Assembly: GCF_019399235.1 (NCBI RefSeq)
Contig: NZ_JAELVH010000002.1
Span: 1 to 64,000 of the forward strand
Reading direction: 5' to 3'
From: Streptomyces poriferorum
Lineage (GTDB): Bacteria; Actinomycetota; Actinomycetes; Streptomycetales; Streptomycetaceae
DNA length: 64,000 nucleotides
Shown here: positions 1-11,719 of the stretch, one piece after another
How the letters are laid out: each line of letters starts with the position of its first letter
Position numbering within the stretch: position 1 is the first letter of the stretch
The notes under the pieces: generated by a model
What the model was told of the DNA's origin: nothing
The model's database searches: none
The model's input: the letters and a program-made list of their open reading frames with translations, nothing else
Translations under genes and position numbers: made by a program

Positions 1-79
1 CGCAGCCCCCGGGCAGGCGTCCGGCCGCGTGCCGCACACCGTGTTCGGGCACGGCCGCCACGCCTGCCCGGGGGCTGCG
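1..79. repeat. Perfect 20-bp inverted repeat with 39-bp loop inside P450 gene
   Basis: Bases 1-20 and 60-79 are exact reverse complements. The loop between them is also partly self-complementary, with GCGTGCC facing GGCACG. The repeat begins exactly at base 1 of the window. That is what an assembly ending at a hairpin or fold-back would give, but a real invertible segment would look the same up to this base. Both orientations keep the P450 reading frame open, and only the flipped one gives the haem-binding signature. Confidence 0.9.
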
Positions 80-1056
80 AAGACCAGCAGGACACGCTCG
101 CCCGCCGCGATGTCCCGGCCGGCGAGCGAGGTGTGACGGGCCGCCGTACGACGCGCCTGAAGGATCGGGGGATGGCCGCGCAGGGTCTCGTCCAGCAGAG
201 CGGGCACGCCCCCGGCCGCCCCGCCCCCGGGCAGCGCCCGCAGCAGTTGTGCCCCGGCCGAGACCGTCGCCCCGAAGCCCGCCTTGACGAGGAGGACCCA
301 GTTGAGCGCGAACCCGCCGGTGGACGACGTCAGCCGGGTGGCCAACGAGGTGGGGAGGTCGTCGGCGGGGTGGGCGGTGCGGTGCCGACGCAGCCGCGTG
401 CAGAGGTGCAGGAAGGCGCGCAGCGCCTGTTCCTCGGCCTCGGGATCGGACGCCATCTCGCTGCTGTCCACGCACCAGGACCGGAACTCCTCCGCCAGGC
501 CCCGCGGCACGCCGAGGAGTTCGCCCAGCGCGTCCGCCACCACCGGCACGACCACGTCCCGCACGAGATCCGCGGCCGCCGGCTGCGGCCCGGCACCGGC
601 GGCCGTGCGGGAGAGGAGGGCCGTTGGGGCGGCCCCGGCGGCCGCGCGGGAAAGGGCAGCCGTCCGGGCGGCGGTGGCCTCCCTCACCCGGTCGCTCAGT
701 CCCCGGGCCATGTCGGCGCGCAGTGGGGCGGAGAGCCCATGCCGCATTCGGGCGTGCGGACCGCAGGACAGCCCGGGGAGCTGGAGGCGCAGCAGGGCGA
801 TCTCCTCGGGGGACGGGTCGCTCATCGCCGTTCCGAGCAGTTCCCCGCTGAAGTCCCGCGGCCTCAGCGCCGCCTCGCGCAGCGCGCGATGCCCGGTGAC
901 GGCCCAGGCCCGCCCGCCGTCAAGGGTGCGCACGGCGACACAGGGCCCCCGGGTTCCGAGGTACGGGAGCAACCCGGCCCGTAACGCCGCGGGGTAGAGG
1001 GAGCTGTCGTCCCAGGCGTCGAGGAGGGCGGCGACCGGCGCGGGGACGGCGTTCAC
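1..1056 (-). CDS. Cytochrome P450, 3' end cut by window edge; haem-loop DNA inverted
   Basis: This is a haem monooxygenase and probably the last gene of the RiPP operon. The GTG start at 1056 overlaps the TGA of the preceding gene (GTGA). Visible P450 features are a C-helix-like CGPHARMRH, an I-helix motif AGFGATVS near residue 259, and the ExxR motif ETLR at 290-293 followed by the usual beta-strand block. The Cys-loop signature is absent from the minus-strand reading. It appears on the plus strand at about 31-78 as PHTVFGHGRHACPGAA, inside a 39-bp loop bounded by perfect 20-bp inverted repeats (1-20 and 60-79). Flipping the loop restores an uninterrupted minus-strand frame with FGHGRHACPG. 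The gene therefore looks inactive as written. The meander before the haem loop is also shorter than usual. A RiPP-tailoring role is inferred from context. Confidence 0.82.
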   Translation of the reverse strand, partial: MNAVPAPVAALLDAWDDSSLYPAALRAGLLPYLGTRGPCVAVRTLDGGRAWAVTGHRALREAALRPRDFSGELLGTAMSDPSPEEIALLRLQLPGLSCGPHARMRHGLSAPLRADMARGLSDRVREATAARTAALSRAAAGAAPTALLSRTAAGAGPQPAAADLVRDVVVPVVADALGELLGVPRGLAEEFRSWCVDSSEMASDPEAEEQALRAFLHLCTRLRRHRTAHPADDLPTSLATRLTSSTGGFALNWVLLVKAGFGATVSAGAQLLRALPGGGAAGGVPALLDETLRGHPPILQARRTAARHTSLAGRDIAAGERVLLVFAAPGQAWRPCPNTVCGTRPDACPGAA

Positions 1057-2279
1057 GCCGCACCCGCCGCGGTGCGGGATGCCAGCGCGTCCAGGACGGT
1101 CCGCGCGTCGCCGTCCCCGGCCAGCACGCCCCTCACGGTCTTCCAGGCAGCCGGCGCGGCCCACCAGCGCGGGCCCCAGCCGTCCGTCAGACATCCCAGG
1201 GCCTCGTCGCGCCAGGCGAATCCGGCCAGGTAGGAGCGGAGGCGGAGGCCGTCGGCGGCGTCCTGGAGCAGGGCCTGGGGCGCGCGGTCGATACCCAGGC
1301 GGGCGTTGAGGCCGACGGTCAGCGCGAGAGCCCCGACCGGGGTGGCGCCGGGCGGCAGCTCGTCGTCGAGGGCCACTGCGGCGCGGAACATCTGGAGGTC
1401 GAGGAGGCCGGTGAACGCGGCGGTGTCGCGGACGGCTTCGGTGAAGGGGGACGGGAGGCCGAGCGTCGCGAGCCACTCGGGGTCGGTGGCCAGGGATTCC
1501 AGGAGCAGGGCCCACCCCTCGGATCGCACGGGGTCGAAGCGCCAGCGGCTCTCCAGCGCCGCGTCCGGTGCGCGCAGGGCGTGTTCGGCCACATGGGCCA
1601 GCTCATGGAGGAGGTGGGCGAGTGCCGGCACGGCGGGGGTGGTGGACTGGACGAGCACACTGCGGCCGGGTACCCGTACGGGTACGGCCACGGCGCTCGT
1701 CCAGACCTTCCGTACGAGCGTGACCCGGTGCTCCGGGGGCAGCAGGCCGGCCCGGCGCAGCCGGGGGACCAGGATCCGCAGCAGGGCGTCGGCGGACGGC
1801 AGTGCGACGGCCGGGCCGTGGCGGCCCTCCCGGAGGGCCGTCCTGAACGCGGGGGTGGTCACCTCCTCGTCCCGGCCCGCTCCGGCCCAGCGGCGCAGCA
1901 GTCCGTCGACGGGCTCGACCGGGCCGCCGCAGCGGAGCAGCCAGGACCGGGTGCCCGCCGTGAGCGGGAACGGCCGCCCCCACTCCCACCACGGGTCGCC
2001 CGTCCTTCGCCGTTCCAGGAAGCCGGCCGCCAGCGCCGAGGCGTCCACCGAGGCGAGGCGCCGGTCGACGGCGGTCCGGCGGACGGCCGGATCAGCGGTG
2101 GGACTCGTGTCGAGGGCGAGCAGGGGCGTGGGCGGTGCCCCGCGGCCGGCCGGTGCGAGCTGGGTCAGCAGCTGCCGCACGCTCCCGGAGGCGGCGGCGG
2201 GAATCGGCCCCGGGTCGGCGCCCAGCCCGAGGTGGGCCAGCACCCGAGCTTCGAGGTAGTCCTCCGCCGGCTGCGGCAT
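1053..2279 (-). CDS. HExxH...E metallopeptidase-like protein of the RiPP operon
   Basis: This is a 408-residue soluble protein with no signal peptide. It has HELAH at residues 225-229, followed about 24 residues later by SEGWALLLE with Glu254. That HExxH-x(n)-E arrangement is typical of gluzincin metallopeptidases. The SEGWAL context resembles DUF885/M3-like enzymes, but I cannot assign a family by eye. It starts 4 nt after the transporter stop and its own stop overlaps the P450 start, so it is translationally coupled within the operon. A leader-peptide protease role fits the context, but this is inference. It could also be a second, divergent HExxH oxygenase related to the neighbour at 5767-7272. 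Confidence 0.72.
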   Translation of the reverse strand: MPQPAEDYLEARVLAHLGLGADPGPIPAAASGSVRQLLTQLAPAGRGAPPTPLLALDTSPTADPAVRRTAVDRRLASVDASALAAGFLERRRTGDPWWEWGRPFPLTAGTRSWLLRCGGPVEPVDGLLRRWAGAGRDEEVTTPAFRTALREGRHGPAVALPSADALLRILVPRLRRAGLLPPEHRVTLVRKVWTSAVAVPVRVPGRSVLVQSTTPAVPALAHLLHELAHVAEHALRAPDAALESRWRFDPVRSEGWALLLESLATDPEWLATLGLPSPFTEAVRDTAAFTGLLDLQMFRAAVALDDELPPGATPVGALALTVGLNARLGIDRAPQALLQDAADGLRLRSYLAGFAWRDEALGCLTDGWGPRWWAAPAAWKTVRGVLAGDGDARTVLDALASRTAAGAA

Positions 2280-2283
2280 TCGC

Positions 2284-3561
2284 TCACCGCCTCCCGCCGC
2301 AGAGCCAGGCCGTCAGCGCCCCTCCGGCGGCAAGCCCGGCCGCGGCGACCGACCAGGTGACGGTGACCGAGTCGATGGCACCCACGAACCATCCGACGAC
2401 GAACAGTCCGACTCCGGTCACGGCTCCGGACACCAGGGAGACGAAGGACAGCATGGTGGCCCGGTTGGCGCTGGTGAGCCGGTCGTTGACCGCGCCCTGG
2501 ACGACCGGCACGGCCACACCCGACGCCGCGGAGAAGCAGGCGAACAGCGTGACCGCCTGCCAGGCGCCGTCGCTGAACGCGGTCCCCAGGAGCAGCACCG
2601 CGGCCGCGAACGACGCGGCCAGGACGATCGGCGGACGGGCGACACCCCGCTTGGTGCGCAGCCTGCGCACCAGGTCGAGGAGCGGGATCTGTACCAGCGG
2701 CCCCACGCAGCGCACCAGCCCGATCAGTACCAGGGAGGTCGTGAACTCCCCGTCCAGATAGGCCGTCCACTGCACGCCGGGCAGGCTGCTCATCAGGGCC
2801 ACGAAGGCCACCGCCCCGGCCAGGAACATCAGTACCCGGTCTCCGCGCAGCGCCGCCCCCGTGCCGCCCAGGTTCTCCCGCAGGGCCGTGGACAGCGAGA
2901 GCCCGCCGGGGCGCGGGGCCCGGCTGTGTTCGCGCATGACCAGAGGCAGGACGGCCGCGGTCACCGCACACACCACCGCCGACAGGAGGAAGGGCAGGGC
3001 CAGGCTCCGGGTGCCGATGACCGCTCCTGTCAGGACACCGGAGATCAGACCGGAGTTGCAGGCGATGCGGCTGCGGGTGAACAGCGCGTCGACCGTCTCG
3101 TCCGCTCCGAAGTGCTCGCTCTCGTCGACCGCCCAGGCCTCCAGCGCGCCCGACTCGAACGTCGTACCGATGGAGACCAGTACATGCGCGAGCAGCAGGA
3201 CGGGCAGGTCGTGAGCGAAGAACAGCACCCCGAACCCCACCGCCCGGAACACGAAGCTCGCGATGACCGAACTACGCCGCCCGAGCAGGTCGGCGACCAG
3301 GCCCGTCGGGATCTCGAAGACCGCCTCGGCCAGCCACACCACCGCGACCGTGGCGAAGATCGCCCCCGGGCTCAGGCCGATGGAGGCGAAGTAGAGGATG
3401 GAAGTCGCGGCCCAGGTGAAGTCGATGAAGTAGCCGACGTACGAGATGCCGTAGAACATCCTGGTCGTACGACGGATCGCCGCCAGGTCCTTCACAGGGG
3501 GCGGTCCGGTGTCCGCACCGAGGGACGCGGACGGCTCCTGGGCGGGCAGATCAGTGGTCAA
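2284..3561 (-). CDS. MFS transporter, putative peptide product exporter
   Basis: This is a 425-residue major facilitator protein with about 12 hydrophobic segments. A clear motif A (GLVADLLGRRSS) follows the second segment. The cytoplasmic N-tail of about 30 residues is Pro/Ser-rich. The start is a TTG at 3561, preceded by GAAGGAAGACC on the coding strand. It begins 31 nt after the radical SAM gene and ends 4 nt before the metallopeptidase gene, so it belongs to the same transcript. Export of the mature peptide or self-protection is the natural role. The substrate cannot be read from sequence. Confidence 0.85.
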   Translation of the reverse strand: MTTDLPAQEPSASLGADTGPPPVKDLAAIRRTTRMFYGISYVGYFIDFTWAATSILYFASIGLSPGAIFATVAVVWLAEAVFEIPTGLVADLLGRRSSVIASFVFRAVGFGVLFFAHDLPVLLLAHVLVSIGTTFESGALEAWAVDESEHFGADETVDALFTRSRIACNSGLISGVLTGAVIGTRSLALPFLLSAVVCAVTAAVLPLVMREHSRAPRPGGLSLSTALRENLGGTGAALRGDRVLMFLAGAVAFVALMSSLPGVQWTAYLDGEFTTSLVLIGLVRCVGPLVQIPLLDLVRRLRTKRGVARPPIVLAASFAAAVLLLGTAFSDGAWQAVTLFACFSAASGVAVPVVQGAVNDRLTSANRATMLSFVSLVSGAVTGVGLFVVGWFVGAIDSVTVTWSVAAAGLAAGGALTAWLCGGRR

Positions 3562-3592
3562 GGTCTTCCTTCTCCGTCATGCACGAGGACAG

Positions 3593-5323
3593 TCATGCGA
3601 ATCGAGTGAGCAGCGAAGGGTCCCGGTCGAGGTGCTCGTCGCCCACCGACTCCCTTACCCGGGCGATCAGTTCGGGCAATGCGGTCCGTGGAGCGCCGGT
3701 CGTGGGCAGATGGGCACCGTACTCCTCGTCGGCGACCGGCAGACCGGTACCGGCCACCTCCACCAGGTGCTGCATGTAGAGGTAGGGGACGTGCCGCAGG
3801 GCGACCAGGTCCAGTTGGAGCTGCGAGAGGTGATCGCCGGTACGGCCACCCGCACGCCACTTCTCGGCGCAGAGCTCGCCGTCGGCGAGCGCGGTGTCGA
3901 TGGCGGGCTGCCAGGCGCGGCGGAACCACCGCATGCCCGCGGCGACCGCGGCGACATCGTCGTTCTCGTACAGGCCCACGATGTCGGGGAGTTCGTTCGG
4001 AGCGAAGACGCGGCCGTGCCGACGTTCGTAGAACTCCCGGATGGGGGTGCCCTGATAGAGCACGAGGGTGGTGTAGATCGCCTCGTGCGGGACGTAGTCG
4101 TAGAAGCCGAGCCGCCGGAGGAACGACAGGTTCAACCGCAGATCGGCCAGCGTGGTGGCCGGATCGAACATGATGAAGTCGACGACGATCTCCAGCCCGA
4201 GCCGCTGCAGCGTGCGCACCGCGTCGACGTTGACCTGGGGCGACACACCCTTCGCCAGCCGTTCCAGCATCGTGGGCGAGGCGCTTTCGATGCCGAGCTC
4301 GACGAACCGCAGGCCGATCTCCTTCATCCGCGCCAGGACGTCCTCGCTGCGCAGGATCTGGTTGACGCGGGTGCCGAAGCTGACCGTGATCCCGGGGTCG
4401 TACGCATGGATCGCCTCGATGACGGCGAGGGAACGGCGCGGGTTCACGTAGAAGTTCGCGTCGCTGAAGTAGATGTGCTGGTACGGGATCCCGTCCCGCT
4501 TCCGGAAGTAGCCGATCTCCTCGACCACCGACTCCGGCGAGCGCGTGCGGTAGCGCCGCCCGATGGTGAGCACACCGCAGAAGGAGCAGTTGTACGGGCA
4601 GCTCCGGCTGGTGTTGACGGTCAGCGCGGGTTTGAGCCGGCCGCTGACGTCGTCGAAGTACGTCAGCGTCGGGTAGCCCGAGTCGGAGGTGAACCGGGCG
4701 TCGGGGAACGGCAGGCTGTCCAGGTCCTCGATGAACGGCGGGTCCTCCCGCGATGCCGCCTCTCCGCTCGGCTCCCGCCATGTCGTGCCCAGCACGCCGG
4801 TCACCGGACGACGCGCGGCGACCCGTCGCGCGATCTCCAGCATCGGCTCCTCGCCCTCGCGGCGCACCACCAGATCGACCTGCGGATGCGCGACGACCAG
4901 GTGGCCGGCGACGGCGGTCGCATGGGGGCCGCCCAGCACGACCAGGGCGGCCGGGTTGCGCTCCTTGACCCAGGCGGCCATGCGCAGGGCGTTGTCGGCG
5001 GACTCGTTGTAGACGGAGAAGCCCACGATGTCGTACGTGTCGAGACGGTGCTCGGCGGCGAGCAGCTCCGGCTCGCGGAGCGCGCCGCCGAAGTCGAAGC
5101 CCTCGCTCTCCAGGCCGTGGGAGCGCAAGTAGGCCATCACGTAGGCGAGCCCGATCGGCTTGGACTTGCGGCGGTCCGAGTACCCGACCGACGGGTTCAC
5201 GAATGCCATGGCCGGGCTGAACTCGGCAGCCTCGGCCGGGGTGAGTGCCGGGGCGATCCGCAGGATCTCGGGCCCCTGCCGGGTTCCGGAGGTCTTCCGC
5301 GTCGCCGGAGTGGTCCGCGCCAT
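3593..5323 (-). CDS. Cobalamin-binding-domain radical SAM enzyme, RiPP maturase
   Basis: The protein has 576 residues. Residues about 25-175 form a Rossmann-like B12-binding module (NPSVGY, DIVGFSVYN, VVLGGPHAT) without the DxHxxG base-off motif. The radical SAM core starts at CPYNCSFC, with cluster cysteines C242, C246 and C249, followed by TRVNQIL and ELGIES strands. There is no Cys-rich SPASM tail. Class-B radical SAM enzymes of this type most often methylate unactivated carbons, but some do other radical chemistry. The ATG at 5323 overlaps the TGA of the PqqD-like gene (ATGA), so the two are coupled, as expected for an enzyme that needs a separate peptide-recognition partner. The assigned substrate is the peptide encoded at 5603-5761. 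Confidence 0.86.
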   Translation of the reverse strand: MARTTPATRKTSGTRQGPEILRIAPALTPAEAAEFSPAMAFVNPSVGYSDRRKSKPIGLAYVMAYLRSHGLESEGFDFGGALREPELLAAEHRLDTYDIVGFSVYNESADNALRMAAWVKERNPAALVVLGGPHATAVAGHLVVAHPQVDLVVRREGEEPMLEIARRVAARRPVTGVLGTTWREPSGEAASREDPPFIEDLDSLPFPDARFTSDSGYPTLTYFDDVSGRLKPALTVNTSRSCPYNCSFCGVLTIGRRYRTRSPESVVEEIGYFRKRDGIPYQHIYFSDANFYVNPRRSLAVIEAIHAYDPGITVSFGTRVNQILRSEDVLARMKEIGLRFVELGIESASPTMLERLAKGVSPQVNVDAVRTLQRLGLEIVVDFIMFDPATTLADLRLNLSFLRRLGFYDYVPHEAIYTTLVLYQGTPIREFYERRHGRVFAPNELPDIVGLYENDDVAAVAAGMRWFRRAWQPAIDTALADGELCAEKWRAGGRTGDHLSQLQLDLVALRHVPYLYMQHLVEVAGTGLPVADEEYGAHLPTTGAPRTALPELIARVRESVGDEHLDRDPSLLTRFA

Positions 5324-5541
5324 CAGCTGCTCCGTTCCGGGAGGAGCACGCCGTCGGCCAGCAGGGAGAGGGCGAACATCCGGTCTCCTCCCTCCAGTTG
5401 GTCCGGGGTGGCCTGCCCGGCGAGCAGTGCCCGCCAGACCGCGGAGGCGGCGGAGTTGAACCGCACGCACTGCCCCTGCGGGCCCCCCTCGGCCACGTAG
5501 ACGTGACCGGCCTCGTCGAGCCAGCGATGAGTCGTCCGCAT
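5323..5541 (-). CDS. PqqD-like RiPP recognition element (RRE) protein
   Basis: This is a 72-residue protein with the PqqD/RRE layout: a short N-terminal beta-hairpin (HVYVAEGGPQGQCVRFN), then a helix containing SAASAVWRALLAG, and a C-terminal helix ending LLADGVLLPE. Such proteins bind the leader peptide and present it to the maturase. The ATG at 5541 was chosen because it is preceded by GGGAAGAACGGG. An upstream in-frame ATG at 5601 would lie inside the small hairpin just after the precursor gene. The stop overlaps the start of the radical SAM gene. Confidence 0.78.
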   Translation of the reverse strand: MRTTHRWLDEAGHVYVAEGGPQGQCVRFNSAASAVWRALLAGQATPDQLEGGDRMFALSLLADGVLLPERSS

Positions 5542-5587
5542 CCCGTTCTTCCCTGTGGTCCGTGTGTTCGGCGTGGTGGGACCACTG

Positions 5588-5601
5588 GTGCCGACCGGCA
5601 C
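5588..5601 (-). terminator. Small hairpin just after the precursor gene, possible attenuator
   Basis: GTGCCG and CGGCAC form a 6-bp stem with a 2-nt loop, starting 1 nt after the precursor stop codon. There is no T-run. It could cap the 3' end of a shorter precursor-rich transcript, as is common in RiPP operons, but it is too small to call with confidence. Confidence 0.3.
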
Positions 5602-5602
5602 A

Positions 5603-5761
5603 TCAGGTGGCGGTCCAGGTACGGCCGAGCATCTTCACGTAGCTCGCGCCGCCCAGGCTGACGGCCTCGGCCGCGGCCTCGTCCGTGTCCTCGAAGCCGT
5701 CCAGGGACAGCTCCTCGGCCAGCTTCGCCACGAGCTCCTGGTCGGTGGACTTGGTGGTCAT
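5603..5761 (-). CDS. RiPP precursor peptide, 52 aa, Cys-free
   Basis: This short gene has a strong GGGGGAGG ribosome site overlapping the stop of the hydroxylase gene, with ATG at 5761. The N-terminal part is acidic and helical (QELVAKLAEELSLDG, then EDTDEAAAEAV), typical of a leader. The C-terminal part, GGASYVKMLGRTWTAT, is small, basic and aromatic, as expected of a core. A double glycine at 37-38 is a possible leader/core border. There is no Cys and only one Ser in the core, which argues against lanthipeptides, thiopeptides and sactipeptides. Tyr41, Lys43, Trp49 and Thr48/50/52 are the obvious sites for methylation, hydroxylation or oxidative cross-linking. The peptide lies between the modifying enzymes and shares their operon. 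I do not recognise its family. Confidence 0.8.
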   Translation of the reverse strand: MTTKSTDQELVAKLAEELSLDGFEDTDEAAAEAVSLGGASYVKMLGRTWTAT

Positions 5762-5766
5762 GTTGT

Positions 5767-7272
5767 TCACCTCCCCCGTTCGTTCCGTGCGTCCCCCGCG
5801 GACTGTGTCCCCGGGGGCTGCTCGATCACCATCAGGCCGGTGTCGAGCAGGTCCGTGAGCGCCCGGGTCACCGCGGTCGCGGCCGAGCCGGGCGCGGCGG
5901 CGCGGAGGGAACTGACGGCGAGGCCGCTGTCCACCCCGTCGCACGCCGTGAAGAAGGCCCACTGGTACGCGTTCAGCACGTGGACGTCCCACGGCTCGAA
6001 CGTGGCCACGAGGCAGAGGTCGGGCTCCGGCCGCCAGGCGCGGTGGCCGGGAGCGCTGCGGCGGAGGGTGCCGGCGGGAAGGGCGGCCGTGCTGCCCGGC
6101 CGGGACAGCGGCCCCGGCTCCCGTTCCCGCCGGGGGCCCGGCCCTGGCACGGCCGCCCCGCCCTCGTGGTTCCGCGGTGCGGCGTCCAGGACGTCGCGCA
6201 GCCACCGTGCCATCCGCACGCCGGCCGGCCCCAGGTCGCGGGAGGCGTCCGCCAGCAGTTCCGTCAGCAGGTACGCGGCGCGTTCGCGGCACACGTCCGG
6301 GCCGGTCGCGCGACTCCGGGCGGACGGGGCGTGACGTTCGTACAGCGCGACGAGGTGGACGTAGACATGGGCGGCGGCGAGTGCCCGGTTGGCCAGCCAC
6401 CGGTGCGGCGCCCCGGACGCCGCGTCCCGGTGCCAGGGGACCGGCAGCAGCAGCGCGCTGTCGTCGGCCACGCCCGCGCGATGGACCGGGCGGGTCAGGG
6501 TGAGCGCGTTGAGCTTGAGGTGGAGCGCTTCGTGCAGGAGTGCTTCGGCGAGGCGGTCGGGATCGTCAATGATGCGGCGTTCGATGAAGATGATCCCCGG
6601 CTGCGAGAGAAGGGTTCCGCTGGCGAAAAGATCACCGTCGAAGAATGTGATTCCGTCGATGAACGGAAATGTTTCCCGAGTGATCTCGGGAACGGCCGCG
6701 CAGAGCAGCTCGGTCGCAGATTCGACGGCTTTCCGTTCGATTTCCCCGGCGACATAGAGGGTGCTGACCTTGAAATCCCCGTTCCCCGCGCCGAGGGCGC
6801 GGGAATGCGTTTCGCGTGAGGCCGGCGCGGTGCGTGCGTACCGTCCGAAAGCCGCGTCGACGGCCGCGGTCAGCGGCCCGTGCACCCCTTGCCACAGCCA
6901 GACGGTCTGCTGCCGCCGCTCGCCGATCCGCGCCGTGCACGAGCGCGCCGGCTCCGAGCCGGTCGGCGACAGACCATCCCGCCGGGGTGCCCGCGGCGCG
7001 ATGGCGGCCGCCAGTACGGACGACGGTTCGGTCACCGGCTCGTGCAGGCCGTCGAACATCGACTGCAACGCGGCCCATACGGCCGGGTCCCCGGCGACCT
7101 CCGGACCCACCGCGACGTCGTCCCCGTGCCCGAAACGCCGCAGGGCGGCCGCGAGGGTGAACCCGAGAACCTGCCGGGCGCGCCGCCCGATCGCGTCCGC
7201 GCGGCCGAAGTCCGGGTGCGCGGCCAGGAGGGCGGCTCGTCCGGGTGCCACCCCTGTGAGCTGCTCAGTCAT
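5767..7272 (-). CDS. aKG-HExxH-type peptide beta-hydroxylase
   Basis: The protein has 501 residues. Residues 245-256 read LLHEALHLKLNA, with H247, E248 and H251 as expected metal ligands. HVYVHLVALYERH follows about 75 residues later. This pattern matches the 'HEXXH motif domain' proteins found beside or fused to RiPP radical SAM enzymes. Fused members have been shown to be iron/2-oxoglutarate enzymes that beta-hydroxylate the peptide. Residues about 330-410 are a low-complexity Pro/Arg/Gly linker, and the last 90 residues form a small helical domain. The ATG at 7272 overlaps the previous gene by 8 nt. The stop is 5 nt before the precursor start. A protease function is the alternative reading of HExxH, but the LKLNA context favours the oxygenase family. 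Confidence 0.8.
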   Translation of the reverse strand: MTEQLTGVAPGRAALLAAHPDFGRADAIGRRARQVLGFTLAAALRRFGHGDDVAVGPEVAGDPAVWAALQSMFDGLHEPVTEPSSVLAAAIAPRAPRRDGLSPTGSEPARSCTARIGERRQQTVWLWQGVHGPLTAAVDAAFGRYARTAPASRETHSRALGAGNGDFKVSTLYVAGEIERKAVESATELLCAAVPEITRETFPFIDGITFFDGDLFASGTLLSQPGIIFIERRIIDDPDRLAEALLHEALHLKLNALTLTRPVHRAGVADDSALLLPVPWHRDAASGAPHRWLANRALAAAHVYVHLVALYERHAPSARSRATGPDVCRERAAYLLTELLADASRDLGPAGVRMARWLRDVLDAAPRNHEGGAAVPGPGPRREREPGPLSRPGSTAALPAGTLRRSAPGHRAWRPEPDLCLVATFEPWDVHVLNAYQWAFFTACDGVDSGLAVSSLRAAAPGSAATAVTRALTDLLDTGLMVIEQPPGTQSAGDARNERGR

Positions 7273-7855
7273 AGGTGGGCACCGCCCCGATGTCGTACTC
7301 GTAACCCCGGCCGGCCTCGTCGAAGGTGCGGCGGACGGCCTGACGGACGGCGGCCGGAATCTGCTGCGGATGGCGGCGGTGGAAGGCGCGCTCGTGCTGG
7401 AACATCACGAACGTCTCGGGCCGGCCGAACCCGTAGCGGGCGTGGTCCTCGCCGAAGCAGGGAGCGAAGCAGAGCACGAACGCCCGGTGCTCTCCCCACC
7501 GGAACCAGTGGCTGGGGTCCGTGACGTCCTCCGGCGACACCGCGGGGCGCCGGGGGGCCGAACGGGCCCCGTACCAGTCGAAGACCGCGACGGTGGTCTC
7601 CTCCAGCCGCTCCAGCGACTCGCCGGCCCAGCCCGGCAGTTCGAGCACATAGCCATCTGCCTCGCCGGTCAGGCACTCTGCGAAAGCGGCCCGGAAAGAC
7701 GGAAAGGCGCATTCCAGATGTTCTTCGAGTGTCGCGGAGCAGTCGCTCGGCGGTGAGGTGCGGATGACCGAACGTGCCGCGTAATGGCATTCGCTCCGGT
7801 CCAGCACGTACTGAAACGTATTCTGGCTCATACCCGGCCCCCGTCGGATATCCAT
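7265..7855 (-). CDS. YqcI/YcgG-like protein, first gene of the RiPP operon
   Basis: This is a soluble protein of about 196 residues. The segment RYGFGRPETFVMFQHERAFH near the C-terminus resembles YqcI/YcgG-family proteins, whose biochemical role is unknown. Cysteines and aromatic residues are frequent (ECHYAARS, CFAPCFGEDH). The ATG at 7855 is given. An ATG at 7831 with a better GGGGG site upstream is equally plausible and would shorten the protein by 8 residues. The gene overlaps the hydroxylase start by 8 nt, so it is co-translated with the cluster. Its role in the pathway is unknown. Confidence 0.62.
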   Translation of the reverse strand: MDIRRGPGMSQNTFQYVLDRSECHYAARSVIRTSPPSDCSATLEEHLECAFPSFRAAFAECLTGEADGYVLELPGWAGESLERLEETTVAVFDWYGARSAPRRPAVSPEDVTDPSHWFRWGEHRAFVLCFAPCFGEDHARYGFGRPETFVMFQHERAFHRRHPQQIPAAVRQAVRRTFDEAGRGYEYDIGAVPTYD

Positions 7856-7861
7856 GCTCAC

Positions 7862-7886
7862 TTCGGAAATGGTCACCACTTCCGAA
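7862..7886. promoter_or_regulatory. 25-bp dyad operator candidate upstream of the RiPP operon
   Basis: TTCGGAA and TTCCGAA flank a centre of TGGT-C-ACCA. Apart from the central base and one other pair, every position is symmetric. The dyad sits just upstream of the first start codon of the operon, so a bound repressor would block transcription or early elongation. A TTGACG hexamer on the minus strand (about 7930-7935) could be a -35 element, although no good -10 follows at normal spacing. The remaining stretch to 8179 shows no further gene. No regulator gene for this site is visible inside the cluster. Confidence 0.55.
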
Positions 7887-8179
7887 CTTCTCGCATAACA
7901 ATTGATGGCCACCGCGGGGCGGGGCGTCAATCGCACACCGGGAAATTGGCTGAAAGGGCGCGTGGCGTGAAAGTGCGTCTTGCGTGATGGTGGAAAAGCT
8001 GCCCTGGAGGCGGCCGGCCGGGCGATGCGCGGGGTGTGTCCGGGGTGCGGGGCGGTGGACGCGCTCGCTGGACCGGACCGTCGTGCCGGACGGGGCGGGA
8101 TGCCCTGCGATGTCCGCACGTTCCGCAGAGCGCCCGGCCGGGGTGCGGCGCAGGCCGCACCCCGGCCTGTCCTGCGGGG

Positions 8180-9223
8180 TCAGGGCTTGACGAGGACCTT
8201 GAGGCTCTTGCGGTCGGCCATGTCCCGGTAGCCGGCGGGGACGCCGTCGAGGCTGGTGGTGGCGTCGAAGACCTTTCCGGGCTCGATGCTTCCGTCGAGG
8301 ATGGCCGGCATCAGTTCTTCGATGTAGGCGCGGACGGGGGCGGGGCCTCCGGCGAGGCGGAGGTTGGGGCGGAACAGGCTGCCCATGCCGATGGGTGCCT
8401 CTTCGTACTGGGGTACGCCGACGCGGCTGATGACGCCGCCGGGGCGGACGATGCCGAGGGCCTGCTGGTAGGCGGGCATGTGGCCGACGGCTTCGAGAAC
8501 CACGTGCGTGCCGTGGCCGCCGGTGAGCTGACGGACCCGCTCGATGCCCTCCTCGCCGCGGGCGGCGACGACGTCGGTGGCGCCGAACTCGCGGCCGAGG
8601 TCGGTGCGTTCCCGGTGGCGTCCCATGAGGATGATCTGCTCCGCGCCCAGGAGCTTGGCCGAGAGCACCGCGAGGAGGCCGACGGCGCCGTCGCCGATCA
8701 CGGTGACGCGGGTGCGCTCGTCGACTCCGCCCATGACGGCGGCGTGGTGGCCGGTGCCGAAGACGTCGGAGAGTGTCAGCAGGGACGGGATGAGGGCGGA
8801 GTCCGCGGCGACGGGCAGCTTGACGAGGGTTCCGTCGGCCAGTGGCACGCGAATGGCTTCGGCCTGGGCGCCCTCCTCGCTCTCGCCGTCCCAGAAGTTG
8901 GCCTGCGGGTGGGAGCAGGAGGTGTGCAGTCCCTCGCGGCAGAACTCGCAGGTGTTGTCGGAGATCGCGAACGGGGCGACGACCAGGTCGCCGCGCTTGA
9001 CGGTGGTCACCTGCGGCCCGGTGTCCTCGACGACGCCGATGAATTCGTGGCCCATCCGCGCAGGGCCGTCCTCGGGCTTCATCGAGCCGTAGGGGTGCAG
9101 GTCGCTGCCGCAGACGCAGGACGCGGTGATGCGGACGAGGGCGTCGGTGGGGTGCTTGATGACGGGGTCGGGGACGTTCTCGACACGGACGTCGCCGGCG
9201 CCGTACATGAGGGTCGCGCGCAT
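8180..9223 (-). CDS. Zinc-dependent alcohol dehydrogenase family protein
   Basis: This is a 347-residue medium-chain dehydrogenase/reductase. The catalytic zinc site shows CGSDLHP, GHEFIG and an acidic residue further on. The structural zinc loop has three or four Cys (CEFCREGLHTSC). The Rossmann motif is VIGDGAVGLLA, consistent with NAD(P)H binding. It would oxidise an alcohol or reduce an aldehyde of unknown identity. The closest textbook relatives are Tdh/FDH-like enzymes. The ATG at 9223 is preceded by GGAAACGGAGCACC. It lies 200 nt downstream of the MFS gene on the same strand and may share its transcript. It is separated from the RiPP operon by the operator region. Confidence 0.88.
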   Translation of the reverse strand: MRATLMYGAGDVRVENVPDPVIKHPTDALVRITASCVCGSDLHPYGSMKPEDGPARMGHEFIGVVEDTGPQVTTVKRGDLVVAPFAISDNTCEFCREGLHTSCSHPQANFWDGESEEGAQAEAIRVPLADGTLVKLPVAADSALIPSLLTLSDVFGTGHHAAVMGGVDERTRVTVIGDGAVGLLAVLSAKLLGAEQIILMGRHRERTDLGREFGATDVVAARGEEGIERVRQLTGGHGTHVVLEAVGHMPAYQQALGIVRPGGVISRVGVPQYEEAPIGMGSLFRPNLRLAGGPAPVRAYIEELMPAILDGSIEPGKVFDATTSLDGVPAGYRDMADRKSLKVLVKP

Positions 9224-9425
9224 GAGTGGTGCTCCGTTTCCAGATGGTGTGTGGTGTGTTGACCAGGTGCCCGTGGAGAGCAGGATCTTGCTGAACCACT
9301 CTCGCCGGTTTGATGTGGGCTGTCCTTATTTGCGGTGCCTGTCCTCGCGTTCCTTCCGTGCCGGTGTCCGCGCAGGTGTCCGCAGTCTCCTAAGGGCTGT
9401 ACCGCCAGGAATCGCAGGTCAGCGC

Positions 9426-10673
9426 TCAGGCGACGGCTGCTGCCGTGCGGCGGCGCTGGAGGAGCGCGATGGCGAGTGTGGGGATCAGGGTGAGGGCGGC
9501 GATCACGGTGCCGACGACGGCGGGGCCGGTCGTGCCGAGCGAGGAGTCGAGGGTGAGGCCTGCGATCCAGGAGCCCACGGCGGTGCCGAGGTTGAACGCC
9601 GAGACGGTCAGGGCGGAGGCCAGCACCGGCGCCTGCTTCGCGAAGCGCACGGCCAGGGCCATCAGCACCGGGTTGGCGCCCAGACCGAAGAAGCCGAGCA
9701 GGGTGATCAGGATGACGGTGGGCACGGCGTAGCCGGCCAGCAGGGAGATCGCGAGCAGCAGGAGGGTGGCTCCGGCGGGAGCCAGGATCGTGACTGTGTG
9801 AGGGCGGTGGTCGCCGAGGCGGCCTCCGACGAGCGAACCGGCCAGGGCGCCCAGGCCGAAGCCGACCAGGACCAGCGGCACGCTGCCGGACTGAACCTCC
9901 GAGCGGCCGATCAGCAGCGGTGAGATGTAGGAGTACGCGGCCAGGACGCCGCCGGTCGTGGTGGCACAGGCCGCCAGCACCAGCCACAGGCGGCCGGAGC
10001 GCAGCGCGGTCAGCTCGGAGCGCACCGACACCGTCCGCTGGGCCGGTCCGTCGTGCGTGACCGTACGGGCGATCAGAACGATGGCTGCGGCTGAGAGGAC
10101 CGCCAGTGCCCAGAAGGGTCCGCGCCAGCCCGTGAGCTGTCCGGCGAACGCGCCCAGCGGCACGCCGACGACGTTGGCGAGCATCGCGCCGGCCCCGACG
10201 AGACCGAGGGCGCGGGAGCCGGCGGCCGGGCCCGCGGCGTTCGTGGCAGCCACATTGGCCACCGCCCAGAACGCCCCGGTGGCGATCGCGGTCAGGAACC
10301 GCGCCCCTAGGATCACGGTGAAGTCCGAGCCGAGAGCGACGATGACATGCCCGACGGCGAAGACCCCGAGGGCGAGCATCAGGGTGAGCCGCCTGGGCAG
10401 CCGCAGGGTGAGCATCGCCATCAGCGGCGCGCCGATGATCATTCCGACCGCGAAGACGGTGATCATCAGGCCGGTCCGGGCCACGCTCACGTCCAGGTCG
10501 CCCGCGATCTCGGGCAGCAGGCCGGCCACGACGAACTCGGTCGTTCCCATCAGGAACGTGCCGATCGCCAGGATGTGGACGACGAGCGGCAACCGGGACG
10601 GGCCTGCTGCCTGCTCGGCCGGTTCGGGCCGGACCTCGGCGGGAGCCTGGAGGGTTCCTCCTCGCGTACTCAC
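9426..10673 (-). CDS. MFS transporter, DHA1 type (AraJ/Cmx-like)
   Basis: This is a 415-residue drug:proton-antiporter-type efflux pump with 12 hydrophobic segments. The first membrane segment has GTTEFVVAGLLPEIAGDL, characteristic of the AraJ/PbuE/Cmx group, and GAGAMLANVVGVPLGAFAGQ resembles the antiporter motif C region. The GTG start at 10673 has GGAG 7 nt upstream. It is divergent from the XRE-type regulator at 10808, which probably controls it. The export substrate is unknown. Confidence 0.87.
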   Translation of the reverse strand: MSTRGGTLQAPAEVRPEPAEQAAGPSRLPLVVHILAIGTFLMGTTEFVVAGLLPEIAGDLDVSVARTGLMITVFAVGMIIGAPLMAMLTLRLPRRLTLMLALGVFAVGHVIVALGSDFTVILGARFLTAIATGAFWAVANVAATNAAGPAAGSRALGLVGAGAMLANVVGVPLGAFAGQLTGWRGPFWALAVLSAAAIVLIARTVTHDGPAQRTVSVRSELTALRSGRLWLVLAACATTTGGVLAAYSYISPLLIGRSEVQSGSVPLVLVGFGLGALAGSLVGGRLGDHRPHTVTILAPAGATLLLLAISLLAGYAVPTVILITLLGFFGLGANPVLMALAVRFAKQAPVLASALTVSAFNLGTAVGSWIAGLTLDSSLGTTGPAVVGTVIAALTLIPTLAIALLQRRRTAAAVA

Positions 10674-10807
10674 AGTGCATCTCCATGGGGGTCGTTATTG
10701 GGTACGTCATCCAGGAAACCGACCCCGCCACCCTTGAGGAAGGTCGCGTTTATGGGGGGTACAAGCTCAACCTCCCTCCCCGCCCGCCGGTGGCTACCGT
10801 GGAAGAC

Positions 10808-11719
10808 ATGGACGACCAGCACGATCACCGCACCGAGATCCGGGACTTTCTCGCCAGCCGCCGAGCGAAGATCACCCCGGAGCGGGCCGGGCTGCCCACC
10901 AGCGGCCGGCGCCGGGTCCCGGGCCTGCGGCGCGAGGAGGTCGCCGTCCTCGCGGGAGTGAGCACCGAGTGGTACACCCGCCTGGAGAAGGGCCACATCA
11001 GCGGTGTCTCCGAGGACGTCCTCGCCGCCGTCGCCCAGGCCCTCCAGCTCGACGAGGACGAGCGCACCTACCTCTTCGACCTGGCCCGCGCCGCACGCCC
11101 GGCCCGGCGCACGCCGTCGCGCCGCCGGGACGTCGCAGTCCCGCCCCGCATCGAGTGGCTGCTGGACTCCATCACGATGTCGGCCGCCTTCGTCCGCAAC
11201 GGCCGCCTGGACGTCATCGCCCACAATCCGCTCGGCCGGACCCTGCACGCGCCGATGTTCGACAGCCCCACCACCGACAGGCGCGGCCGACCCAACTTCG
11301 CCCGCTTCCACTTCCTCGACGACACCTCCCACGACTTCTTCGTCGACTGGGAATCCGGCGCCGCCGCCACCGTCGCACTGCTGCGCGCCGAAGCCGGGCG
11401 CGAACCGCACGACCGGACCTTGCGCGAACTGGTCGGCGAGCTGTCCACCCTCAGCCAGGACTTCCGCACCCTGTGGGCGGCGCACGACGTCCGCATCCGC
11501 CACGACGGCGTCAAGCGGCTCCAGCACCCCGAGGTCGGCGAGCTGGAGCTGACCTACCAGTCCGTGGACCTGCCCGTGTCCCAGCGAGCCGTGCATGACC
11601 TGAGCCTCTACACCGCCGAACCCGGCAGTACCTCCGAAGACCGGCTCAAGCTCCTGACCAGCCTGGCGGCAACCCGTACCGCCAGGACCGGCACGGCAGA
11701 GACCGATCAACGGAGCTGA
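10808..11719 (+). CDS. XRE-family regulator with MmyB-like ligand domain
   Basis: This is a 303-residue DNA-binding regulator. The helix-turn-helix covers RRRVPGLRREEVAVLAGVS and TEWYTRLEKG at residues about 30-60. The C-terminal region has the MmyB-like 'transcription regulator ligand binding' pattern (RNGRLDVIAHNPLGRTL, then FVDWESGAAATVALLRAEAG). Such proteins in actinomycetes usually control a divergent oxidoreductase or transporter. Here the divergent neighbours are the MFS pump and alcohol dehydrogenase. The ATG at 10808 follows GGAAGAC. An upstream in-frame ATG at 10685 would overlap the divergent promoter region and is less likely. Confidence 0.86.
   Translation: MDDQHDHRTEIRDFLASRRAKITPERAGLPTSGRRRVPGLRREEVAVLAGVSTEWYTRLEKGHISGVSEDVLAAVAQALQLDEDERTYLFDLARAARPARRTPSRRRDVAVPPRIEWLLDSITMSAAFVRNGRLDVIAHNPLGRTLHAPMFDSPTTDRRGRPNFARFHFLDDTSHDFFVDWESGAAATVALLRAEAGREPHDRTLRELVGELSTLSQDFRTLWAAHDVRIRHDGVKRLQHPEVGELELTYQSVDLPVSQRAVHDLSLYTAEPGSTSEDRLKLLTSLAATRTARTGTAETDQRS

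Follow-up and report, generated by a model that had tools for sequence, protein, structure and literature searches.

The window (the whole stretch of DNA analysed here, 64,000 nucleotides, positions 1 to 64,000 of contig NZ_JAELVH010000002.1 of Streptomyces poriferorum) begins with a gene cluster for a ribosomally synthesised and post-translationally modified peptide (RiPP), an assignment that is well supported. Base 1 of the window is the end of the 115,007-base contig, and eight minus-strand genes span the region from the contig end to position 7831, neighbouring genes overlapping by 1-8 nt or being separated by gaps of 4-61 nt. The best explanation of the whole, to which we give slightly less than even confidence, is an undescribed RiPP subfamily. 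A protein resembling PqqD and the RiPP recognition element (RRE) would present the leader, and the C-terminal core SYVKMLGRTW(TAT) would be the target of the maturases. Of these, the YqcI/YcgG-like heme protein would N-hydroxylate the guanidine of Arg47, and the B12-binding radical S-adenosylmethionine (SAM) enzyme and the P450 would modify, most likely cross-link, Tyr41 and Trp49. The α-ketoglutarate HExxH (aKG-HExxH) enzyme may add a β-hydroxyl, possibly on the C-terminal aromatic residue, in the manner of BipH in biphenomycin A; the peptidase of M3/M32/ACE-like fold would trim the product, a strongly oxidised small molecule, and the major facilitator superfamily (MFS) protein would export it. 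In sister clusters, pairs of a multinuclear non-heme iron-dependent oxidase (MNIO) and its partner would replace the HExxH enzyme and the P450, and a JmjC protein would replace the YcgG-like one where the core has Lys. Overall, this would in our reading be a biphenomycin-like logic applied to another core. More tentatively still, it is proposed that the subfamily is built on [Y/F]x3LG[R/K]x[Y/W], that a peptidyl Arg is N-hydroxylated by a YqcI/YcgG-type enzyme, a heme-thiolate protein other than a P450, that the oxidase modules are exchanged and that the enzyme for the basic residue is matched to Arg or Lys.

Searches with the radical SAM protein gave seven further loci besides the window. L004 (Streptomyces sp. 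CB01201, 91% identity of the radical SAM protein) and L005 (S. sp. WM6378, 57%) were the only relatives among 34 pattern-matched contig stretches, and genome searches gave L006 (genome G109), L012 (G596), L014 (G735) and L011 (G399) with an identity of about 57-58%. The distant locus L013 (G451) has a radical SAM protein 35% identical to that of the window. All eight operon genes are found in the same order in L004. The tightly packed, overlapping operon drawn in an earlier note on this DNA was confirmed, every open reading frame (ORF) being in its place, with start codons that are the analyst's choice. In all six close relatives, the precursor gene lies just upstream of the RRE-like and radical SAM genes, and the peptidase and MFS genes follow downstream in varying order; in L012 the gene caller overlooked or broke up the MFS gene and a portion of the partner gene, which tblastn detected. 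As L004 keeps the order of eight genes and five more relatives keep the genes of the precursor, RRE-like protein, radical SAM enzyme, peptidase and MFS protein, the conservation goes beyond chance. The same note had proposed a RiPP operon with a small precursor; the genome-neighbourhood comparison encountered no homologous neighbourhood without a conserved small peptide, which is present in 8/8 loci, including the window.

The alignment of the eight precursors shows how little the core varies. It reads SYVKMLGRTWTA[T/G] in the window and L004, SYTKMLGRIYN in L005, SYTKMLGRIWS in L014 and SYTKMLGKIY[A/S] in L006, L011 and L012, while the distant L013 has FETVLGRSYS. The precursors of the close relatives end in SYxKMLG[R/K]x[Y/W], and the LG pair is invariant across all eight. 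The window and 16 loci together contain 4138 ORFs (stop to stop, 40 codons or longer). A C-terminal LG[RK]x[YWF] followed by 0-4 further residues was found in exactly eight of these, the eight precursors; the pattern had been written after the peptides were known. The recovery of this motif in a locus as distant as L013 is hard to ascribe to chance. The precursor genes of the window and L004 differ in five codons, three of them non-synonymous, and those of L006 and L012 in three, all synonymous, which is too few for a measurement of selection. L013 itself (5892-11110) encodes a 62-aa peptide, a B12-radical SAM enzyme and an arginase, as well as aminotransferase-like and GNAT-like proteins named by eye, and is a variant on the same core. 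The RRE assignment of the earlier note stood as a putative one, with a weak PqqD score (14.9 bits, cut-off 23.4); PqqD is below its cut-off in four of the seven RRE-like proteins scanned (window, L004, L005 and L014) and gave no match in L006, L011 and L013.

Three features were not mentioned in the earlier note: the presence of MNIOs in five of the six close relatives, the likeness to biphenomycin logic and the association of the YcgG-like gene with a core Arg. Homologues of the aKG-HExxH and P450-like proteins were found by tblastn of the fetched loci only in the window and L004, whose HExxH protein is 74% identical to that of the window. The other five close relatives carry MNIOs, a single one with its partner in L006, L011 and L012, and in L005 and L014 two, each with a partner; the three MNIOs scanned matched PF05114 (5.9e-31, 2.4e-26 and 3.4e-27). 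Tblastn with MNIO and partner queries from the sister loci, which gave matches in five sister loci, found none in the window, and neither the L013 arginase nor the L011 JmjC query had a tblastn match there. L005 (9592-17904) and L014 (9040-17473) combine their two MNIO-partner pairs with a YcgG-like gene and a core Arg. An MNIO-like gene, 26-28% identical to the MNIOs of the sister loci, was also observed elsewhere on the contig of the window, at about 77.5-78.8 kb (L015, 13453-14772).

The basic residue of the core and the tailoring genes change together. By tblastn, the YcgG-like gene is present in all four close loci with a core Arg (window, L004, L005 and L014) and in none of the three with a core Lys, and the JmjC gene is confined to the latter (L006, L011 and L012, 3/3). 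The JmjC protein of L006 (PF08007, 2.2e-16) is fused to the peptidase. In L013, where the core has Arg, an arginase (PF00491, 1e-28) is encoded, which was found only there. A search of 12 whole genomes with PF08892 gave zero matches in G109, G596 and G399, a weak result since the window's own YcgG-like gene was not listed by it. The tree of MFS proteins resolved three pairs and carries no information on Arg or Lys.

The YcgG-like protein of the window is, judging from its sequence, a divergent YqcI/YcgG homologue. It scores 17.4 bits against PF08892 (cut-off 27), its L005 homologue scores 22.7, and it matches L031, a protein of the same genus above the PF08892 cut-off, with an E value of 2e-15. 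One Cys column is common to all seven usable rows of the alignment, the L030 row having been left out. As described in the available text of PMC12866846, enzymes of this family N-hydroxylate guanidines by means of a heme whose ligand is a Cys, and the characterised members use free Arg or small Arg derivatives. The window protein resembles these N-hydroxylases (AglA) through the bridging above-cut-off member and the N-terminal Cys column; it differs from AglA-type enzymes by its divergence, its score below the Pfam cut-off and its location in a RiPP cluster. A second YqcI/YcgG protein, with a full score of 191.9 bits, is encoded elsewhere in the genome of the window (L028, G000:C366:3636-4244). 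No report of a RiPP with a YcgG/YqcI protein was found in open-access main texts, supplementary files and subscription journals lying outside the search, and N-hydroxylation of a peptidyl Arg in a RiPP likewise appears to be without a report there.

The closest likeness among known systems is to biphenomycin. The available text of PMC12257519 and PMC12707348 describes a pathway in which an MNIO with its partner forms ortho-Tyr, an arginase converts Arg to Orn, a JmjC/cupin protein hydroxylates Orn, a B12-radical SAM enzyme cross-links two aromatic residues and a TldD-type protease frees the product. According to the same sources, BipH, an aKG-HExxH enzyme, hydroxylates further in S. griseorubiginosus (PMC12707348), ordinary Tyr residues of a YTY variant are likewise cross-linked by PbsB (PMC12257519), and the biphenomycins have potent antibiotic activity against Gram-positive bacteria (PMC12707348). 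The biphenomycin clusters pbs, bip and bpm share with the present family a short precursor, aromatic residues around a basic one, a B12-radical SAM enzyme, an optional aKG-HExxH enzyme and an MFS protein, and the sister loci resemble them further in the MNIO with its partner and in the JmjC protein or arginase. The core differs, however, FRF in biphenomycin and SYVKMLGRTW in the window, which adds YcgG-like, P450-like and M3/M32/ACE-like peptidase genes; no TldD-type protease was found within the window, which stops at the contig end, the operon peptidase being of the HExxH...E type. Membership in the biphenomycin family was rejected: a B12-radical SAM enzyme is present, the core is not of the FRF type, and MNIO with partner, arginase, JmjC/cupin and TldD were not found in the window with the queries used. 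A biphenomycin-type cluster was observed in genome G153 (L027, 9835-18401), with a 43-aa precursor ending in FHAFRFKAVS; its radical SAM, MNIO and JmjC genes were named by BLAST and the others by order and eye. The FHAFRF pattern was found in the DNA of 5/214 genomes and its reversed control gave seven matches in six genomes, so that most of the matches are chance ones; among the five regions only L027 had radical SAM and MNIO matches. The MNIOs of the sister loci are 25-29% identical to that of L027.

Several points weigh against the proposed pathway. The genes, the conserved precursor and core, the gene swaps and the Arg/Lys correlation are observations, from which every reaction, its site and its order are inferred. 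The radical SAM protein shares only 23.6% identity with its counterpart in L027, and Tyr41 and Trp49 are spaced by eight residues, compared with two in FRF. The YcgG-like, RRE-like and P450-like proteins all score below curated cut-offs, and the P450 of L004 has DTLR where ETLR is expected. The equivalence of the conserved Cys to Cys44 of AglA is putative. The AlphaFold model of the YcgG-like protein is poor (mean pLDDT 53.5), and a fold search with it gave no match at an E value of 0.001 or better; nor did the L005 homologue match any PDB entry by sequence (0 matches). The four loci with Arg and YcgG-like genes form one clade of the radical SAM tree (97/100 with L013 as sole outgroup, 82/96 with four distant rows), so the match between residue and enzyme probably represents one switch, and L013 has a core Arg and no YcgG-like or JmjC gene.

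It is also quite possible, if somewhat doubtful, that the core Arg is not the substrate of the YcgG-like protein, which would instead take free arginine or a different residue, or serve as a helper. Its score below the Pfam cut-off, its confinement to one clade, the gene content of L013 and the small substrates of the characterised family members (PMC12866846, as far as its available text goes) are all consistent with this. Against it stand the distribution of the gene among the close Arg and Lys loci, the conserved Cys column and the packing of the gene within the operon each time.

The radical SAM protein corresponds to the B12-dependent type that the earlier note had recognised, with PF04055 (75.8 bits, 5.9e-21) and PF02310 (57.6 bits, 1.4e-15) above their cut-offs, and CxxxCxxC is found in the radical SAM proteins of all eight loci. 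Among solved structures, the closest to it in sequence is that of the methyltransferase TokK (3.5e-15), which favours another explanation, doubtful though deserving attention: the enzyme would be a C-methyltransferase, any ring would be formed by the P450 alone and the product would be an oxidised, C-methylated peptide of the kind put forward in the earlier note. Methylation is described as the majority activity of RiPP B12-radical SAM enzymes in the available text of PMC12707348; the cross-linking of aromatic residues is another activity of such enzymes in RiPP pathways. The score of 114 bits with TIGR03975, the RiPP C-methyltransferase model, points the same way, but its cut-off is 281.85; the second-best NCBIfam match, ApyD, gave 116.8 bits (cut-off 750), and no cut-off of a characterised NCBIfam family was reached. 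Moreover, five of the six close relatives are without a P450 and still keep both aromatic residues, which speaks against this explanation. The identification of the P450 itself stood as a putative one, with a weak score and no Pfam match in the window (15.9 bits with PF00067 for the L004 homologue, cut-off 22.8); the gene is truncated where the contig stops, with its final ~79 bases apparently inverted, probably an assembly artefact. ETLR is present in the window, and the full-length L004 homologue reads straight through FGHGRHACPG.

The aKG-HExxH enzyme predicted earlier was borne out by TIGR04267 above its curated cut-off and by its HExxH motif. BipH and PflC belong to the same domain family in the available text of PMC12707348 and PMC12636437; their partners and cores differ, the likeness being at the level of the domain family. 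Enzymes of this family can also cut backbones oxidatively (PMC12636437, available text). By eye, the C-terminal part of the HExxH enzyme had looked like an RRE, but this idea was dropped, as Pfam gave no support and the profile comparison a probability of 0.3%. The assignment of the HExxH...E peptidase also held, the motif and the downstream Glu being invariant in six aligned homologues, and no Pfam or NCBIfam family matched. Its predicted model (mean pLDDT 73.7) gave Z scores of 19.8-21.2 with oligoendopeptidase F (21.2) and Pz peptidase, up to 18.1 with M32 carboxypeptidases and up to 17.2 with angiotensin-converting enzyme (ACE), the 50 entries listed running from 21.2 to 15.4, so that the matches fit M3, M32 and M2 alike. 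A trimmer of the product is the natural reading of such a model.

Aminopyruvatide (apy) clusters reportedly combine a B12-radical SAM enzyme and a P450 in one RiPP cluster, as the window does; the core differs and the MNIO has no match in the window. Membership was rejected on the lack of an MNIO match and on the ApyD score given above. No literature match was found in open-access main texts for the four core strings, and these texts show no pathway with such an enzyme combination or core, in accordance with the earlier view that the combination is not a named class.

The cluster is rare. The genomes matching across the searches numbered 2/392, 4/394, 4/391, 1/394, 1/2 and 2/199 (threshold 1e-60 or 1e-50; the sets overlap, and the window's own genome is counted in all except the 1/2 set). 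Such a patchy occurrence, with a single carrier among 391 congeners sampled, the window's own genome aside, suits a specialised metabolite and makes it improbable that the product is, rather than an antibiotic, a conserved peptide serving as signal, cofactor or metal binder, with N-hydroxyguanidine as the ligand, even though N-hydroxyguanidine groups bind metals and the core is little changed among loci whose radical SAM proteins are 55-91% identical.

Plasmid searches gave no matches for the peptidase, the YcgG-like protein of L005 or the radical SAM protein of L013; with the window radical SAM protein, two distant beta-proteobacterial loci were found. L016 (Burkholderia stagnalis plasmid plas2, 1-10781) contains, according to annotation, three radical SAM genes around a gene for a 55-aa peptide, together with P450, MFS and insulinase-family genes, and looks like another RiPP cluster. 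An alcohol dehydrogenase gene (8180-9223) and a second MFS gene (9426-10673) of the window were left out of the cluster, as the L004 stretch has no homologue of them. Rfam (gathering threshold) and tRNA scans of the window gave no matches.

Table 1. Genes and other features of the RiPP cluster at the beginning of the window.
Feature	Position	Strand	Remarks
YqcI/YcgG-like protein, 188 aa	7265..7831	-	start possibly further upstream; PF08892 17.4 bits, cut-off 27
aKG-HExxH peptide hydroxylase, 501 aa, motif HEALH at residue 247	5767..7272	-	TIGR04267 42.3 bits, cut-off 40
RiPP precursor, 52 aa, without Cys	5603..5761	-	homologue adjoins RRE-like and radical SAM genes in 6/6 close relatives
Likely core SYVKMLGRTWTAT, residues 40-52 (Tyr41, Arg47, Trp49)	5606..5644	-	alignment of 8 precursors
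PqqD/RRE-like protein, 72 aa	5323..5541	-	GTG start at 5601 possible; homologues in 6/6 close relatives
B12-binding radical SAM enzyme, 576 aa, CPYNCSFC	3593..5323	-	PF02310 and PF04055 above cut-off
MFS transporter, probable exporter	2284..3561	-	PF07690 49.9 bits, 2.9e-13; kept in 6 relatives including L014
HExxH...E metallopeptidase, 408 aa, M3/M32/ACE-like fold	1053..2279	-	no family match; motif and predicted fold
P450-like gene, truncated by contig end	1..1056	-	TIGR04515 54.5 bits, cut-off 343
Apparently inverted segment between 20-bp inverted repeats (1-20, 60-79)	1..79	.	FGHGRHACPG on + strand at 44-73

If the YcgG-like enzyme indeed modifies a peptidyl Arg, a RiPP would contain an N-hydroxyguanidine that is genetically encoded. 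That the tailoring enzyme changes jointly with the residue in the core makes the family a natural experiment, in which the pairs of enzyme and substrate may be checked by the swap of a single residue.

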